NCBI GenBank assembly: GCA_030603165.1
Contig: JAUVYH010000011.1
Location: 1-35,129, forward strand
Reading direction: 5' to 3'
Length of the DNA: 35,129 nucleotides
From: Fidelibacterota bacterium
GTDB lineage: Bacteria; Fidelibacterota; UBA2242
A model generated the notes under the pieces. That model did not search any database, had not been told where the DNA came from, and saw only the letters and a program-made list of their open reading frames with translations. How positions within the stretch are numbered: position 1 is the stretch's first letter; each line of letters starts with the position of its first letter. Shown here piece by piece: positions 1 to 35,129 of this stretch. The position numbers were made by a program, and so were the translations under genes.

Positions 1-50
1 TTAAAGTCTGAAAAATTAATTAATAACCCTATATCTTTGTTAACTGCTTT

Positions 51-72
51 TCCCAAAGGGATCACTACGTGA
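51..72. repeat. 22-bp micro-insertion in the GxxExxY gene
   Basis: On the coding strand the family text YL-KAVNKDIGLLINF is split after the Leu codon by 22 bp containing the palindrome TCCCAAAGGGA (51-61) and the near-palindrome CACTACGTGA. Since 22 is not a multiple of three, it shifts the frame and causes the stop at 40-42. It resembles the CCCGAAGGG-type micro-elements elsewhere in the window. Confidence 0.65.
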
Positions 73-240
73 TAAATATGATCTAACTTGGGCATAATAT
101 TTCTTATGGATTTCTTTAACTGTCTTAAGTTCTAAAACAATTTCTTTTTCTATTAAAAAATCTAGCCTGTGTAGCCCAACAAATTTCTTATGGAAAGACA
201 CTGATATCTCTTTCTCAGATTCAAATTTAATCTCTTCTTC

Positions 241-310
241 TTTACCCCATGTAATATATCGTTTTTCTATTTTTCTGTTATCTTTTCTTTTATTTATTAC
301 ACGGGGTGAA
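241..310. mobile_element. 70-bp palindromic element (copy E2) inside the GxxExxY gene
   Basis: Inverted ends TTTACCCCATGTAATA (241-256) and TATTACACGGGGTGAA (about 295-310) enclose an AT-rich centre. Removing 66 bp restores the expected IRF-KEEEIKFE junction, so the element adds 22 residues in frame (SPRVINKR...YITWG). It has the same ends and the same 62-bp CCCC-to-GGGG core length as the element at 2656-2725. Confidence 0.8.
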
Positions 311-345
311 AATCTAATTTCTAATGCTTTATGATAAATACTTTC

Positions 346-366
346 CCGAAGGATCCCTATCGGGAC
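346..366. repeat. 21-bp micro-insertion in the GxxExxY gene, in frame
   Basis: The family text GFL-ESIYHKAL is interrupted by seven residues, VPIGILR. The DNA has short inverted ends TCCCGA (344-349) and TCGGGA (360-365) around GGATCCCTA. At exactly 21 bp it keeps the frame. Confidence 0.65.
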
Positions 367-391
367 AAGAAAACCAGGCCCAAGCTCTTTA

Positions 392-462
392 TTCACCCTG
401 TTAAATAATTCTTGATAATTATACTTCTGTTGTGAAATATCTTTACTATTTAACAGGGTAAA
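392..462. mobile_element. About 70-bp palindromic element (copy E1), frameshifting the GxxExxY gene
   Basis: Inverted ends TTCACCCTGTTAAATAAT and ACTATTTAACAGGGTAAA flank an AT-rich centre. On the coding strand it separates IIGCCIDV from KELGPGFL. The net addition is 67 bp (63-bp core plus four bases), which shifts the frame and brings in a TAG. The outer bases TTCA/TAAA match the other copies; the interior does not. Confidence 0.8.
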
Positions 463-543
463 CATCTATACAACAACCAATAATTTTATTTATCAATTTC
501 TCTATTTCTTCCTTTTCCATTTTTCCTTATTTCCCCTTTTCCC

Positions 544-1125
544 TTAGTTACACTTACATCCGTGAACACTTACGATCTTGGCTGCTGTTATTTTCTTTTG
601 GGCTTGATATTTACCCTTTTTATCGGCATAAGACACTTTACAGTCATCGTCGCTCTCGAAAAACAATACCTGGCATAATCCTTCATTGGCATAGATTTTT
701 ACGGGAACGGGAGCTGTATTTGATATCGATATCGTCACGTATCCCTCCCACTCCGGTTCAAAAGGCGTGACATTTACGATAACTCCACAGCGCGCATATG
801 TCGATTTACCTGATGTAAGAGTGACTACATTCCTGGGAATCCGGAAATATTCAACGCTTCGCGCTAATACAAAACTGTTTGCCGGAATAGTACAGACATC
901 CGCTATTACTGTCTCAAACTGTGAATCGTCAATATTTTTCGGATCGATTACGATGCCGGCTTTCGCTTTGAAAACTTTGAATTCGTTGGCGATCCGCATA
1001 TCATAACCATACGCCGATATTCCGTACGAAATGACGCCCTTGCTGATCTGACCTCTTTCAAACGGTTCGATCATTCTGTATTTCTCGCACATTTCCTCAA
1101 TCCACCAATCCGGTCTTACACTCAC
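544..1125 (-). CDS. dcd: dCTP deaminase (catalytic Glu replaced by Ser)
   Basis: Cytosolic trimeric enzyme that converts dCTP to dUTP and ammonia, feeding dTMP synthesis. At 193 aa it has family length. Recognisable blocks are [18 protein letters not shown] (about 32-49), [42 protein letters not shown] (111-128) and the C-terminal KKGKYQAQK. Ser108 and Arg112 correspond to E. coli Ser111 and Arg115. The residue aligned with the E. coli general base Glu138 is Ser133 (codon TCG, 727-729): the usual text after EWEG is VTLEFSN or VTIEISN, here VTISISN. The fold and substrate site look intact, so this may be an inactive or altered deaminase. Its spacer upstream (1144-1479) is a composite repeat. 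Confidence 0.9.
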
Positions 1126-1363: not shown

Positions 1364-1421
1364 TTAACCTCCCCCTCTTTCCTCCGGCAGCTGCCGGAAA
1401 GGGACGAAAGGGGGTGGTTAA
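1364..1421. repeat. TTAACCTCCCCC palindrome (58 bp)
   Basis: TTAACCTCCCCCTCTTTCC pairs with GGGACGAAAGGGGGTGGTTAA around the perfect palindrome TCCGGCAGCTGCCGGA (1383-1398). The related copy at 8146-8198 has a different centre, CCCCTCCTTgtcAAGGAGGGG. It could form a strong hairpin in RNA, but no T-run follows, so I do not call it a terminator. Confidence 0.7.
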
Positions 1422-2611: not shown

Positions 2612-2746
2612 TTTACCCCATGTAATAAGAAAAGACAAAAATAACATGAAGTGAATTCACCCCGTGTAATAATCAATGCAAGGATAATGGCTAATAAAAA
2701 ATGGAAAAATATTACACGGGGTAAACGAACTATTACACGGGGTTTA
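2612..2746. mobile_element. Palindromic element E4, interrupted by E3
   Basis: Outer ends TTTACCCCATGTAATA and CTATTACACGGGG. Without E3 the core is 61 bp. The site without the element in copy 2 of repeat B reads (on this strand) CGCAGAG-TTTA-TCGG; here TTTA stands on both sides of the CCCC...GGGG core, as expected of a 4-bp target duplication. The same insertion at the same place occurs in copy 3 (20817-20951). Confidence 0.8.
2656..2725. mobile_element. 70-bp palindromic element E3, nested in E4
   Basis: Starts TTCACCCCGTGTAATAATC and ends AATATTACACGGGGTAAA: inverted ends of about 16 bp and an AT-rich centre. It splits E4 after ATGAAGTGAA. A near-identical copy lies at 20838-20907 within repeat B copy 3, in opposite orientation. 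Confidence 0.85.
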
Positions 2747-10883: not shown

Positions 10884-11112
10884 ACCCTAACCTGGACAAG
10901 CCCCCGAAGGGGCAGGCAGAGCCAAAAAATGACAACAATATTTTATAAACGCAGAGGCGCAGAGGACGCAGAGAATTATTAAATGTATAACAAACATGTA
11001 TCCAAACCGAAACCGCTGATACATTTAAGACAAACACTTTTTGGAAAAAGTTTTCCGATAAACTCTGCGTATCTTTGCGATCTTTGTGTCTCTGCGTTAA
11101 AATCTTCTTTAT
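10884..11112. repeat. Composite spacer repeat B, copy 2 (without E4/E3)
   Basis: Left arm ACGCAGAGGCGCAGAGG... (10949-10973), core AATTATTAAATG...TTTTCCGATAA (about 10974-11062), right arm CTCTGCGTATCTTTGCG... (from 11063). The core has no CCCCGTG element, so the site GATAAACTCTGCG is the unfilled state for copies 1 and 3. The left flank has a 15-bp extra block (10903-10917). Downstream to 11277 there is AT-rich sequence with no gene seen. Confidence 0.85.
10903..10917. repeat. 15-bp micro-insertion with CCCCGAAGGGG
   Basis: Copy 3 of repeat B reads GGACAAGCC-AGAACCAAAAA; this copy reads GGACAAGCC-CCCGAAGGGGCAGGC-AGAGCCAAAAA. The added bases form the palindrome CCCCGAAGGGG (10902-10912) plus CAGGC. 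Confidence 0.65.
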
Positions 11113-20623: not shown

Positions 20624-20816
20624 ATTTACCCTACTACGTAACTTTCGAATTTAATATACCTAAACTGGACAAGCCAGAACCAAAAAATGACAACAATATT
20701 TTATAAACGCAGAGCCGCAGAGAACGCAGAGAATTATTAAATGTATAACAAACATGTATCCAAGCCGAAACTGCTGACACATTTAAGACAAATACTTTTT
20801 TGAAAAAGTTTTCTGA

Positions 20817-20951
20817 CAAACCCCGTGTAGTAGTTCGTTTATCCCATGTAATATTTTTCCATTTTTTATTAGCCATTATCCTTGCATTGATTATTACACG
20901 GGGTGAATTCACCTTCATATTATTTTTGTCTTTCTTATTACATGGTGTAAA
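20817..20951. mobile_element. Nested palindromic elements E4 and E3, second copy
   Basis: Outer element CCCCGTGTAGTAGTTCG ... CTTATTACATGGTGTAAA, interrupted at 20838-20907 by a 70-bp element (TTTATCCCATGTAATATT ... ATTACACGGGGTGAA). It is nearly identical, in reverse, to 2612-2746. Bases CAAA/TAAA surround it, compared with one TAAA at the unfilled site in repeat B copy 2. Confidence 0.8.
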
Positions 20952-20996
20952 CTCTGCGTGTCTTTGCGACCTTTGCGCCTTTGCGTTAAAATTTTC

Positions 20997-21071
20997 TCTA
21001 CCCCGTTGGATAGTTCTTATATATGTCCGGCTGCTGCCGGATTCCATCAATGACTTATCCAACGGGGTGAA
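20997..21071. mobile_element. 75-bp palindromic element E5
   Basis: CTACCCCGTTGGATAGT pairs with ACTTATCCAACGGGGTGAA; the centre has CCGGCTGCTGCCGG. Removing 71 bp restores TTTTCTCTACAAAAAAAC, which matches the TTTTCTTTACAAAAAAAC at about 11172. Its ends share only the first 8-9 bases with E1-E4. Confidence 0.75.
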
Positions 21072-27012: not shown

Positions 27013-27630
27013 AATTTAAATTGTTTATATGTAAGCGTTCACGGAACGTTGAAATTAGAAAATAGAAATTGGAAATTTGGCCTTCATGCTTTTGTACTGT
27101 TGATGAACGCATTCAATTTTGGTCCGAGTTTTTTCCCGAGGGGACTCCTGCGGAGCAAATATTGCAAAGTCGTGCCAGACCATATCTGATAACGACTCTG
27201 CCGGTTTGTGCCAAAGGCATGTCCAGACCAGTTTTTACATTTAACTTCTCTCATCGCAAGTTTCCTTTTGTTTGTTTTTATGTTTGCATCATCTCTTAAT
27301 TAAAGGAGACTTGCTTACTTTTAAACATAAAAACTTCGGCATAAACGTCCAACTCGTAAACTTGTTTCATCTCTCCCAAATTTCTACTTTCCAATTTCCC
27401 CGAAGGGATACCTCCGGCACAAGTTTCAAGCCGGGAACGGTTACGTTTATATCAGTAGAAATATTGGAATGATGGAAGAAAAATGAAATTAAATTGTTTC
27501 CAAAGTATGATGGTTGTGATTTTCTAACAATGAAGTCGAGATTTATCCTTATTCTGTTTAATTGAAATATTTTTCGTATTGGTCATAACCGGTTTCATAA
27601 ACACGATTACCTTATTGACAACTTTCATAG
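27013..27630. other. Spacer of about 620 bp with decayed repeats
   Basis: No gene recognised. It holds GAAATTGGAAATTTGG (27065-27080) and its approximate reverse complement (27376-27400); two CCCGAGGGG/CCCCGAAGGG micro-elements (about 27134-27154 and 27397-27408); and inverted words GCAAGTTTCCTTT and AAAGGAGACTTGC (about 27256-27315), GTTTTTATGTTT and AAACATAAAAAC. It looks like layered palindromic insertions. Confidence 0.5.
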
Positions 27631-31732: not shown

Positions 31733-34700
31733 TTATTTGATTATCACACACTTCTTCACATCTCTAAATCCATGTCCTGAGCCTGACGAAGGATCACCGG
31801 CTTTGATTTCATACAAATACACTCCTGAGCCTACCTTCGAAGCATCCCATTGGACTGAATAGTATCCCGGTTCCTTTGATCGATTTTCTAAAACTTCCAG
31901 CGCTGGACCGGCGATATTGTATATTGTCAAAGTGACATGAGATCTTTCAGGAAGTCCGTATTTGATTGTCGTGGTTGGATTAAATGGGTTGGGATAATTC
32001 TGAGAAAGGGAGAAAACTGCCGGTATGAAAGAAGTCTCCTTTATAACACCGGTTTCTGATCCTATTGAGAAATCGGCGTCCGATGCGTCCCAGTCCGAAT
32101 CACCACCGGTATCGTAGGCAACAACCTTTATTTTACAAATAGAACAAACTGTATCGGGTAAAGTCCATGGATATATACCGTCATCTATCTCGGAGTCAGA
32201 AATAAGCGTGTAAGAATTTCCACTATCCAGTGAGTAGTAAAGTTCGATATTTTCAATGCTGCCGGTTGTTGCCCAGAGAATGTTATGAACAGTATTTTTA
32301 AACCAGTTTTCACCGCCATTAGGCGATATTAATGTCACCGGCGCTGTTGGTCCGTAAGCATACAAACGCCCGTCATTTGAGCCTACATAGACACAGGAGT
32401 TTGCGGCAATTGACGGTGAACTTGTAACCTTATCACCCGTTATTCCGCTCCAGACAAGTGTTCCGTCAGAACCGTTTAAACAGTAAATTGTGCCGTCGTT
32501 AGAACCAATATAGACAAATCCACGGGCATCAATTGCCGGTGAAGACTCAATTATTCCCTCGGTTTGATAGGACCATAACAAATCGCCGGTAGAACTCAAG
32601 GCATAGACTTTGCCATCATAGGAACCGAATAAGATATTGCCATCAGCGTCTATAGCCGGTGAAGATGTAATTGTATCTCCGGTTGTATAGGTCCACCCGA
32701 TTGTTCCATTGGGATTGACTGCATAGAGTTTACCATTACAAGAACCGGCATAGATAACCCCTCTTGAAGTATCCACTGCGGGCGATGAGATAATAGCTCC
32801 CGGAGTGTTCATAGACCAGCCAAGACTTCCATCCGGATTTATCGCATACAACTTGTTGTCATTAGAACCCACATAGACAATCCCATCCGGGGAGATAGCG
32901 GGAGAAGACAGAATGTCGCCACCCGTAGCATATTTCCATTTCAAACTTCCATCGGCGTTCACAGAATACAGGGTATCATTGGTTGAGCCGAAGTATATCG
33001 CCCCATCTGCGCCAATAGCGGGTGAGGAAATGATTGAACCGCTTACACTATATTCCCATTTAATATCACCGTTAGATATAAAGGCTTTCAGAGTTCCGTC
33101 ATCTGTTCCGATATAGATGGTCGAATCAATAGCGATGGCTGGTGAGGATTTTGTGGAATTAAGAGGTTTATTCCATTTTTCAGTACCGTCGGGATAAACA
33201 GCATAAAGAACATCGTTTTCCGATGTGAAATATATAATACCGTCCGGTCCGACAATGGGGGCGGATGAAACCGGTTGATCTGTTGTAAAATACCATTTGA
33301 TGTTACTGCTTATTGCACCATAGTATGGACTCCTGCCTGTATGCTGGATGTTATTATGAAACATCGGATATTGGGAAGAAGCAAGAATGGGATAGGTAGT
33401 GGTAGAATCTAAAACCACATTAGAAAGCCCCGACCGGTTATTGACATTATCCCTTGTCTTCATTGCAAAGTAGTAAGGTGTATCGGTCAGAAGGTTCATA
33501 ATGGTAAATGTCTGATTACTACCATGCCATAATGGTGTAGGTTCATCGTCGCATTGAGTAGCAGCGCCCCAATTGGATTCTGTAATGGGTGAAAGGGCAT
33601 ATCGTATGTCATACTCGGTAGCTCGTCCCCCTGATAAACTATCATCACCTGGTGCAGTCCAAATGATATTAATAGTATTGTATGTTCTGTCTAAAACCTG
33701 AAGGTTTATAATTTCAGCAGGAGGAGTGGCATCAATTTCAAAATTTCCGTTACTCCAATCCTCGGCTAATACCTGGCTTTCTGATCCAACCACTTGAATT
33801 TTTACCCGCACATAATCAGATGTTATTTCCGGGGCTATCCAGTCATAAGTGGTGTCTGTTCCGGATATGTCGGTTGCAATGGTATCGGGATATGAACTGC
33901 CGCCATCGGTTGAGTAAAGTAGTCTGTAGCTATTAATCGCATTAAGAAAACGAAGGAGAGCGTCTGTCCCGGTAATGTCCCATTGGTTATTGGATTTTGC
34001 CCCGGCAAAGCTGGAAACTTCCTTCATTTTACCACCTACTTTATTTGCCTGCGCAGCCGAGAATCCATCGCCAACCGTATGCCATCTAATCTGATGAGAG
34101 CTTCCATCTTTCCATTCCTCGCCGCCGTTTGGAGAGATAAGGGTTGTGTAGAACTGAATCGTGAAGTTACCGTCGCTGGCATCTTCCGCTATAACATTAC
34201 TCCCAGCATCCAATATCTGGACCTTCACTCTGCAAGTAGTGCAGTTTATAGGTGGAAGCGTCCATCTCCATGATGTGCTATCTGGTGATATACCAATTGA
34301 AATAGTATCTGCATAACTACTTCCTCCATCAGTAGAGAATAACAATCTATAACTGTCAAATCCCTGACCAACTACATCCCAAGTTGTTTGATAAGTTGCG
34401 CCACCTACCCAGGTTTCGCCACCATTTGGTGTGATAAGCGCAATGAATTCACCATTCAGGACATATATTTTATTATCCAAAGATCCAACAACAACTTCAA
34501 GCATTCTATCCCCATCTATATCACCAAGCGCTGGGGAAGATGTGACATCGCCTTCTGTTGTATATGACCAGAGGAAACCCCCGGCTTCACCACTCAGGGC
34601 ATATATTTTATTATCATCGGAGCCAACAACAACTTCAAGCATTCCATCCCCATCTATATCACCAAGCGCTGGGGAAGAGCGGTATATAGTGTTGCCTGTT

Positions 34701-35129
34701 GTATATGACCATAGCAAACCACCATCTTCACCATTCAGGGCATATATTTTATAACCGGATCCAACAACCACCTCAAGTTTTCCGTCACCATCTATATCAC
34801 CTAACGCTGGTGAAGATGATATATAGCTGCCTGTTGTATTTGACCAGAGAAAATCACCATCTTCACCATTCAGGGCATATATTATACTATAATTGGAGCA
34901 AACCACTACCTCAAGTTTTCCGTCACCATCTATATCACCAAAGGCTGGTGAAGAGTAGATTGCTTTGCCTGTTGTATATGACCAGACAAATGAACCATCT
35001 TCACCATTCAGGGCATATACTTTATTATCATAAGAGCCAACAACCACCTCAAGATTTCCGTCACCATCTATATCACCAAGGGCTGGTGAAGAGTATATTG
35101 CGTAGCCTGTTGTATATGACCAGACAAAT
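31733..35129 (-). CDS. Secreted FG-GAP / PQQ-propeller protein with Type IX sorting domain (5' end off the window)
   Basis: The frame is open to the window edge; at least 1131 residues are visible. In order: at least five FG-GAP repeats of 46 aa with the calcium-type motif DIDGDGxLEVVVGS; two Ig-like domains beginning LITPNGGETW and LISPNGGEEW; an FN3 domain (TYNTINIIWTAPGDD, about 33735-33420); a PQQ-like propeller of about eight blades (SSPAIGADGAIYFGS type, about 33300-32350); a third LISPNGGENW domain; and the sorting domain (SQNYPNPFNPTTTIKYGLPE to KKCVIIK). That domain directs export by the Type IX system, so the protein is probably released or surface-bound. Two in-frame additions, 126 bp at 33935-34060 and 24 bp at 31769-31792, stand out from the domain pattern. 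Role unknown; adhesion or display is a guess. Confidence 0.9.
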   Translation of the reverse strand, partial: FVWSYTTGYAIYSSPALGDIDGDGNLEVVVGSYDNKVYALNGEDGSFVWSYTTGKAIYSSPAFGDIDGDGKLEVVVCSNYSIIYALNGEDGDFLWSNTTGSYISSSPALGDIDGDGKLEVVVGSGYKIYALNGEDGGLLWSYTTGNTIYRSSPALGDIDGDGMLEVVVGSDDNKIYALSGEAGGFLWSYTTEGDVTSSPALGDIDGDRMLEVVVGSLDNKIYVLNGEFIALITPNGGETWVGGATYQTTWDVVGQGFDSYRLLFSTDGGSSYADTISIGISPDSTSWRWTLPPINCTTCRVKVQILDAGSNVIAEDASDGNFTIQFYTTLISPNGGEEWKDGSSHQIRWHTVGDGFSAAQANKVGGKMKEVSSFAGAKSNNQWDITGTDALLRFLNAINSYRLLYSTDGGSSYPDTIATDISGTDTTYDWIAPEITSDYVRVKIQVVGSESQVLAEDWSNGNFEIDATPPAEIINLQVLDRTYNTINIIWTAPGDDSLSGGRATEYDIRYALSPITESNWGAATQCDDEPTPLWHGSNQTFTIMNLLTDTPYYFAMKTRDNVNNRSGLSNVVLDSTTTYPILASSQYPMFHNNIQHTGRSPYYGAISSNIKWYFTTDQPVSSAPIVGPDGIIYFTSENDVLYAVYPDGTEKWNKPLNSTKSSPAIAIDSTIYIGTDDGTLKAFISNGDIKWEYSVSGSIISSPAIGADGAIYFGSTNDTLYSVNADGSLKWKYATGGDILSSPAISPDGIVYVGSNDNKLYAINPDGSLGWSMNTPGAIISSPAVDTSRGVIYAGSCNGKLYAVNPNGTIGWTYTTGDTITSSPAIDADGNILFGSYDGKVYALSSTGDLLWSYQTEGIIESSPAIDARGFVYIGSNDGTIYCLNGSDGTLVWSGITGDKVTSSPSIAANSCVYVGSNDGRLYAYGPTAPVTLISPNGGENWFKNTVHNILWATTGSIENIELYYSLDSGNSYTLISDSEIDDGIYPWTLPDTVCSICKIKVVAYDTGGDSDWDASDADFSIGSETGVIKETSFIPAVFSLSQNYPNPFNPTTTIKYGLPERSHVTLTIYNIAGPALEVLENRSKEPGYYSVQWDASKVGSGVYLYEIKAGDPSSGSGHGFRDVKKCVIIK
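31769..31792. repeat. 24-bp micro-insertion in the sorting domain, in frame
   Basis: The sorting-domain ending is normally close to IKAGDFRDVKKCVIIK; here IKAGD and FRDVKK are separated by PSSGSGHG. The inserted DNA reads CCTGAGCCTGACGAAGG on the plus strand, a word very like the CCTGAGCNTGNCGAAGG repeat I know from many genomes. Confidence 0.6.
33935..34060. repeat. 126-bp in-frame insertion in an Ig-like domain
   Basis: The neighbouring paralogous domain reads VGQGF-DSYRLLFSTDGGSSY. This one reads VGDGF, then 42 extra residues (SAAQANKVGGKMKEV...RFLNAI), then NSYRLLYSTDGGSSY. The added DNA has no strong inverted ends apart from TTTTGCCCCGGCAAAG in its middle, so it is a different class from the palindromic elements. 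I remember similar DNA as an interspersed repeat in other genomes but cannot confirm. Confidence 0.65.
34515..35129 (-). repeat. Tandem 138-bp repeats encoding FG-GAP units
   Basis: The word TCTATATCACC recurs at 34515, 34653, 34791, 34929 and 35067, exactly 138 bp (46 codons) apart, with high identity between units. The array continues beyond the window edge. The exact spacing and high similarity point to recent unit duplication. Confidence 0.9.

Follow-up and report, generated by a model that had tools for sequence, protein, structure and literature searches.

Two families of small palindromic elements in a GxxExxY gene that is probably the cargo of a short mobile unit

How one small gene at the edge of a contig came to hold four separate palindromic insertions is the question raised by the window, the 35,129-nt stretch of Fidelibacterota DNA analysed here. 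This stretch makes up contig C14 of a genome of 3.31 Mb in 255 contigs (G000), a MAG whose nearest named relative, UBA9312 (DPVY01000222.1; Candidatus Neomarinimicrobiota), provides the comparison locus L040, and elements were sampled over stretches of G000 totalling 0.99 Mb. The interrupted gene matches the profiles TIGR04256 and PF13366, confirming its initial annotation as GxxExxY. With 24 GxxExxY matches, G000 ranked first among 41 genomes; a literature search for GxxExxY gave just two mentions, both incidental, and an Rfam search of the window returned zero matches. Elsewhere in the window, at 34448-35122, a 138-bp sequence is tandemly repeated five times within a 1104-aa reading frame. 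Our account of the interrupted locus, which we regard as probable, is that a non-autonomous mobile unit about 0.6 kb long carries the GxxExxY gene as cargo and that this unit has been invaded by two element families, a long element (LE) and a double hairpin (DH).

Four insertions and their empty sites

The initial annotation had rebuilt the protein by removing four blocks, and for each of them, at net sizes of 67, 66, 21 and 22 bp, a DNA-level empty site in L040 gave an exact match. The L040 unit contains none of the blocks and its gene is 89-90% identical to that of the window; a second intact copy, the more distant L041 (77%), likewise lacks blocks A-D. All four lie on the minus strand and are given here in gene orientation, a slash marking each junction. 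Block A (392-462) is a 71-bp LE that replaces TTCA, such that GATG-TTCA-TAAAG in L040 reads GATG, TTTACCC..GGGTGAA, TAAAG in the window, a net gain of 67 bp that shifts the frame. Block B (241-310), a 70-bp LE, replaces the TGCA between GATT and GAAG with TTCACCC..GGGTAAA and adds 66 bp net, or 22 aa in frame; its empty sites are in L040 and C102. Folded as single strands, A and B gave z = -4.5 and z = -4.2, respectively. Blocks C (345-365, equivalently placed at 346-366) and D (51-72) are clean insertions of double hairpins. In C, 21 bp, TCCCGATAGGGATCCTTCGGG(A), are added to TTTCTTG/AAAG of L040, giving seven further aa within the GxxExxY signature motif (GFL/ES), and the site is also empty in G003:C96. 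In D, 22 bp, TCACGTAGTGATCCCTTTGGGA, forming two hairpins each with a 4-bp stem and a 3-nt loop, are added to CATATTTA/AAAGCAG at codons YL/K and shift the frame; this site is empty in L040, L041 and G003:C96. Two of the blocks had been placed in a palindromic family with other copies in the window, as holds for A and B, members of the 29-copy LE family, and the short palindromic cores noted in the other two are real, C and D moreover belonging to one double-hairpin family. The initial annotation missed this second family, and also that the gene itself is an interspersed repeat.

The blocks vary among copies of the gene. C102, also in G000, holds A, C and D with the B site in its ancestral state, and block B is found in C253 (up to the contig end) and in G003:C96. 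With respect to B and C, the window is B+C+, G003:C96 is B+C-, C102 is B-C+ and L040 is B-C-, four states that conflict with a simple tree, and hence the copies recombine or lose inserts precisely. Both families are polymorphic among unit copies and are therefore recent. The proposal that two insertion systems are active here stands as far as two families of different size and their polymorphism are concerned, from which present activity may be surmised.

Recurrent insertion sites in GxxExxY genes

Sites were placed by joining the flanks of each element and comparing the result with intact GxxExxY proteins. The V/HKELG site is occupied by block A, by a DH in C168 and by a 30-bp palindromic insert in G003:C95, while the GF/LES site, in the signature motif, is occupied by block C and in C70/C196, C90 and G005:C22. 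LE occupies the LES/VY site in C18, C90 and G005:C22, and YL/K is the site of block D and of insertions in C60, C58 and G009:C324. On a conservative count of 15 events, with independence of events assumed, nine pairs fell within one codon vs 2.7 by chance (p = 0.004). From one GxxExxY family to another, insertions recur at shared codons, a pattern for which target preference and gene conversion are both possible.

Since the copies recombine or lose inserts, the recurrence could reflect gene conversion between GxxExxY copies and not target preference, a reading to which we give a real but minor chance. The four-gamete conflict among unit copies is consistent with it, as are C58, apparently a recombinant between two LE insertions, and an identical TCACGTAGTGAT..GGGA hairpin at YL/K in two unit families. 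However, inserts at one site often differ, with several DH sequences at GF/LES and two LE types at LES/VY, and divergence among the host genes is too great for conversion to be easy. On our account, site preference, not chance, would lie behind the recurrent positions.

Two families of palindromic elements

LE is an inverted-repeat family of 62-75 bp with ends TTYACCC..GGGTRAA and covarying arms, of which a pattern search found 29 strict copies in G000 and, with the reversed pattern as control, 0. Arms remain complementary at 12-13 of 13 positions though their middle bases vary (GTGTAATA, GTTAAATA, GTTGGATA, GTTAGATA, GTGGAATA), and 29/32 arm positions left unconstrained by the search pattern are complementary; interiors vary between subfamilies. 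The element replaces a 4-bp TNNA target, namely TTCA (A), TGCA (B), TAAA (a nested copy), TGAA (G009:C324) or TTTA (the unit-2 type in G005:C22), and presumably TTTA again in C90. The nested copy (2656-2725, plus strand) lies inside another LE at about 2612-2746, the uninterrupted type of which is present in C15, C106 and C151. Also on the plus strand of the window are a 75-bp LE (20997-21071), whose arms are of the GTTGGATA type and whose interior holds a TCCGGCTGCTGCCGGA palindrome, and a diverged relative at 74% to block B (20838-20907). A 160-260 bp intergenic repeat with ends CGCAAAGG..CTCTGCG, at 2595-2857, 10914-11071 and 20672-20968, is itself interrupted by LE. LE was also seen in two stretches of viral contigs, and at L014 (G000:C58) an N-terminal LE has apparently recombined with a LES/VY LE, the intervening gene segment being deleted. 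An attC-like reading of the ends (GTTRRRY/RYYYAAC) was rejected, the order being reversed and the feature not common to all members.

In canonical form, DH has 22 nt and consists of two adjacent 11-nt hairpins head to tail, each with a 4-bp stem and a 3-nt loop, the first loop being RAR and the second TTC-like; block C, at 21 bp net, departs slightly from this form. An example in non-coding DNA is TCCCGAGGGGACTCCTGCGGAG (27134-27155, plus strand). In tests with no pairing presupposed, 26/63 GC-rich 11-nt hairpins had a second hairpin at exactly +11, and 0 had one at -11. A scan across the phylum with stem bases left free returned 31 copies in G000, 18 in G015, 12 in G005 and few elsewhere (0-4 in most of 245 genomes), and the reversed control gave two matches in 245 genomes, with 0 in G000. 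Among 41 distinct sequences, the four free stem pairs were complementary in 33-39, a level that none of 10,000 shuffles attained for any of the pairs. The folding energy of DH is by itself weak, with z between about -0.5 and -1.9. DH insertion leaves no target duplication, and the flanks are TTN/NAA in ~82% of cases, a figure that is partly a both-strands count. A dyad-centre preference was rejected, flank complementarity exceeding base composition at position 1 only (0.51 vs 0.31). The related single palindromes TCCCGATTAATTCGGGA (C253, G003) and TCCCGATATATCGGGA (L040, G003) replace 6-10 bp and fit neither insertion rule.

Mobility is difficult to demonstrate for repeats as small and palindromic as these, since their empty sites seldom come to light. 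The short palindromes might instead form locally, when replication forks switch template or correct quasi-palindromes, without being mobile at all. The differing sequences at every site with pairing kept, the replacement of 6-10 bp by some single palindromes and the compensated divergence between stems of one insertion (TGGC with GCCA vs TGAC with GTCA) would suit an in-place origin. We nevertheless consider it unlikely, given the fixed 22-nt plan with its polar order and preferred loops, the concentration of ~31 copies here vs 0-4 in most genomes, and the exact gain of 22 bp with no flanking homology consumed; nothing comparable accounts for the LE families. As mobile elements, both kinds may insert in trans in a folded, single-stranded form, as conserved pairing over variable sequence and the lack of a duplication suggest. 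Single-strand movement would suit an enzyme of the Y1 type (IS200/605-like), and Y1 genes are common in G000. A more sweeping proposal seems to us quite unlikely, namely that DH is recognised by shape and not by sequence, is inserted as ssDNA at TT/AA without duplication, and makes up with LE a single mobilome, driven by hairpins and built around GxxExxY units, in which the PD-(D/E)XK-like GxxExxY protein, encoded by the sole gene of the unit, is part of the moving machinery.

Several known systems resemble DH in part. Cyanobacterial small dispersed repeats (SDR), said to have been described by Elhai et al. in 2008, are reportedly mobile hairpin-forming repeats of 21-27 bp found inside other repeats; they occur in another phylum, and in DH the plan of two hairpins is fixed and the stem sequence free. 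Mitochondrial DHE are two adjacent GC-rich hairpins, mobile in genes and spacers and usually longer. DH shares with them the two adjacent hairpins with covarying stems, but DHE are organellar, and DH, built on 22 nt, belongs to a bacterial chromosome. Non-autonomous palindrome pairs are a feature of REPIN/RAYT systems (PMC3116915). RAYT-like Y1 transposases do occur in G000, but their loci are flanked by other palindromes and not by DH, and a RAYT/Y1 transposase was accordingly rejected as the DH mover. At L284 (G005:C123), each REP flank of a RAYT-like gene contains a DH of the 22-nt family. When window positions 1380-1410 were compared with L131, hairpin CCCCTCCTTACTAAGGAGGGG of G001 corresponded to CCTCCGGCAGCTGCCGGAAAGGG of G000, one palindrome being swapped for another at one site.

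Rickettsia palindromic elements (RPE; Ogata et al. 2000), as outlined in PMC2229807 and PMC10969869, are palindromic elements of 105-146 bp that insert in frame in ORFs. Blocks A and B share with them a stem-loop palindrome with inverted-repeat ends, and the present elements, too, can sit in frame inside open reading frames. They differ in belonging to another phylum, in their sizes (62-75 and 22 bp), in being confined here to non-coding DNA and GxxExxY units, and in either replacing their target or merely splitting it. Across the 0.99 Mb sampled, as judged by spanning open frames, elements lay outside recognisable conserved genes except GxxExxY. In 74 kb of orthologous DNA between G000 and G001/G002, whose core genes are 93-95% identical to those of G000, differences were mostly intergenic and no palindromic insertion was found inside an intact ordinary gene. 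A rain of insertions into ordinary genes can thus be dismissed for these 74 kb.

It is very unlikely that LE and DH are RPE-like selfish coding palindromes, inserting in protein genes generally and tolerated when in frame. Block B is in frame, C70 carries an LE in frame at the N-terminus, and G003:C95, the sole otherwise intact GxxExxY frame with an LE in frame (178 aa, 119 bits), remains open with the further 30-bp palindromic insert, also in frame. Against this stand the absence of insertions in ordinary genes over the 74 kb, the mostly non-coding appearance of other spanning open frames, the broken frames at A and D, and sizes of 70 and 22 bp vs 105-146 bp (PMC2229807). RPE-like tolerance, invoked by the initial annotation, therefore extends to GxxExxY genes, as the open frame in G003:C95 indicates, but not to ordinary genes in the 74 kb compared.

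The GxxExxY unit and its movement

The interrupted gene lies in a unit of ~0.6 kb with inverted-repeat ends GTAAnnGTTCAC, a GxxExxY (PD-(D/E)XK-like) gene inside and no transposase. In the window, the unit covers positions 1-573 (minus strand), running from its 5' terminal inverted repeat GTAAGTGTTCACGGATGTAAGTGTA (573-549) through the start codon (520-518) to the contig edge. The 3' end lies beyond, on C142; in C102, C165 and C142, GTAAGTGTTCACGGATGTAAGTGTA pairs with TTACACCTGTGAAnGGTTAC at the opposite end of the unit. C14 stops inside the unit because the unit is a repeat; C142 and C165 begin with an identical 141 bp. A complete copy in C102 is ~607 bp long (GTAAGAGTTCAC..GTGAAAGGTTAC), near-identical copies are present in C102, C253, C32 and C165, and G000 has four or more unit loci. 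By eye, a unit copy in C253 and C165 appears to lie between bacterial microcompartment shell genes, EutM/PduA-like and EutN-like.

In G002:C105, dcd adjoins ispH (..GCTAAAATCAAATGAATTC), providing an empty orthologous site for the G000 order dcd, unit, ispH, where the unit has an 8-bp target duplication, two bases of which have since diverged. The 8-bp duplication is exact around L040 (ACATAAAG) and the copy in C32 (ATTAATTG) and near-exact in other copies; in unit 2, a second family whose ends are GTAATAGTTCACCACTGA, it is again 8 bp long and exact in C154 (ATAAAAAC), C58 (CAATTTTG) and C255 (AATTTATG). The GxxExxY unit therefore combines the features of a MITE-type element, namely terminal inverted repeats, a target duplication of fixed length and an empty orthologous site. 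At 544-573, the unit supplies the last dcd codons, 12 C-terminal residues replacing AKIK of G002, and its insertion has made the dCTP deaminase (dcd) 8 residues longer. IS66 ends begin with GTAA and IS66 leaves an 8-bp duplication. The unit resembles a MITE of this group in its inverted repeats, 8-bp duplication and lack of a transposase, but differs in containing a GxxExxY gene and in that G000 has no IS66 transposase. An IS66 transposase as unit mover was rejected, PF03050 being absent in G000, an incomplete MAG, with 2 fragments only in 61 relatives.

That a resident host gene is decaying in place under two active insertion systems, as first proposed, would account for the frames broken by A and D and for two distinct families in one gene, and both families are indeed recorded there, but the A, C and D shared by near-identical copies at other loci, the absence of the unit at the G002 junction of dcd and ispH, and the inverted repeats with their 8-bp duplication make it the least likely reading, the gene being cargo of a mobile unit. 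On the mobile-cargo reading, A, C and D would have been acquired first, LE entering by replacement of a 4-bp TNNA target and DH without target duplication, mostly at TTN/NAA, and would have broken the frame. Broken copies stand at four loci, and because A, C and D are common to copies at different loci, the unit spread after its frame was broken; we infer that the broken unit is moved in trans. GxxExxY units may accumulate micro-elements because they are numerous and dispensable.

Across the phylum, many other GxxExxY genes lie between inverted repeats, beyond shuffled controls, and no target duplication was seen around these genes. The GxxExxY flanks of L186-L213 hold inverted arrays with a period of ~8-10 bp (CCACGGATTACACAGAT, CCGCGGAGTGCGCTGAG), varying from family to family, and such arrays could possibly be binding sites evolving with the protein. 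The widespread GxxExxY genes are in this phylum carried about by inverted-repeat units, of which one group has proven target duplications. A dispensable, multi-copy unit of this kind is a natural trap, in which the sequence with and without each insert can be read to the base within one genome and its relatives. The insertion rules obtained for the two families, a 4-bp replacement and a clean 22-bp insertion, make the search for the enzymes concrete.
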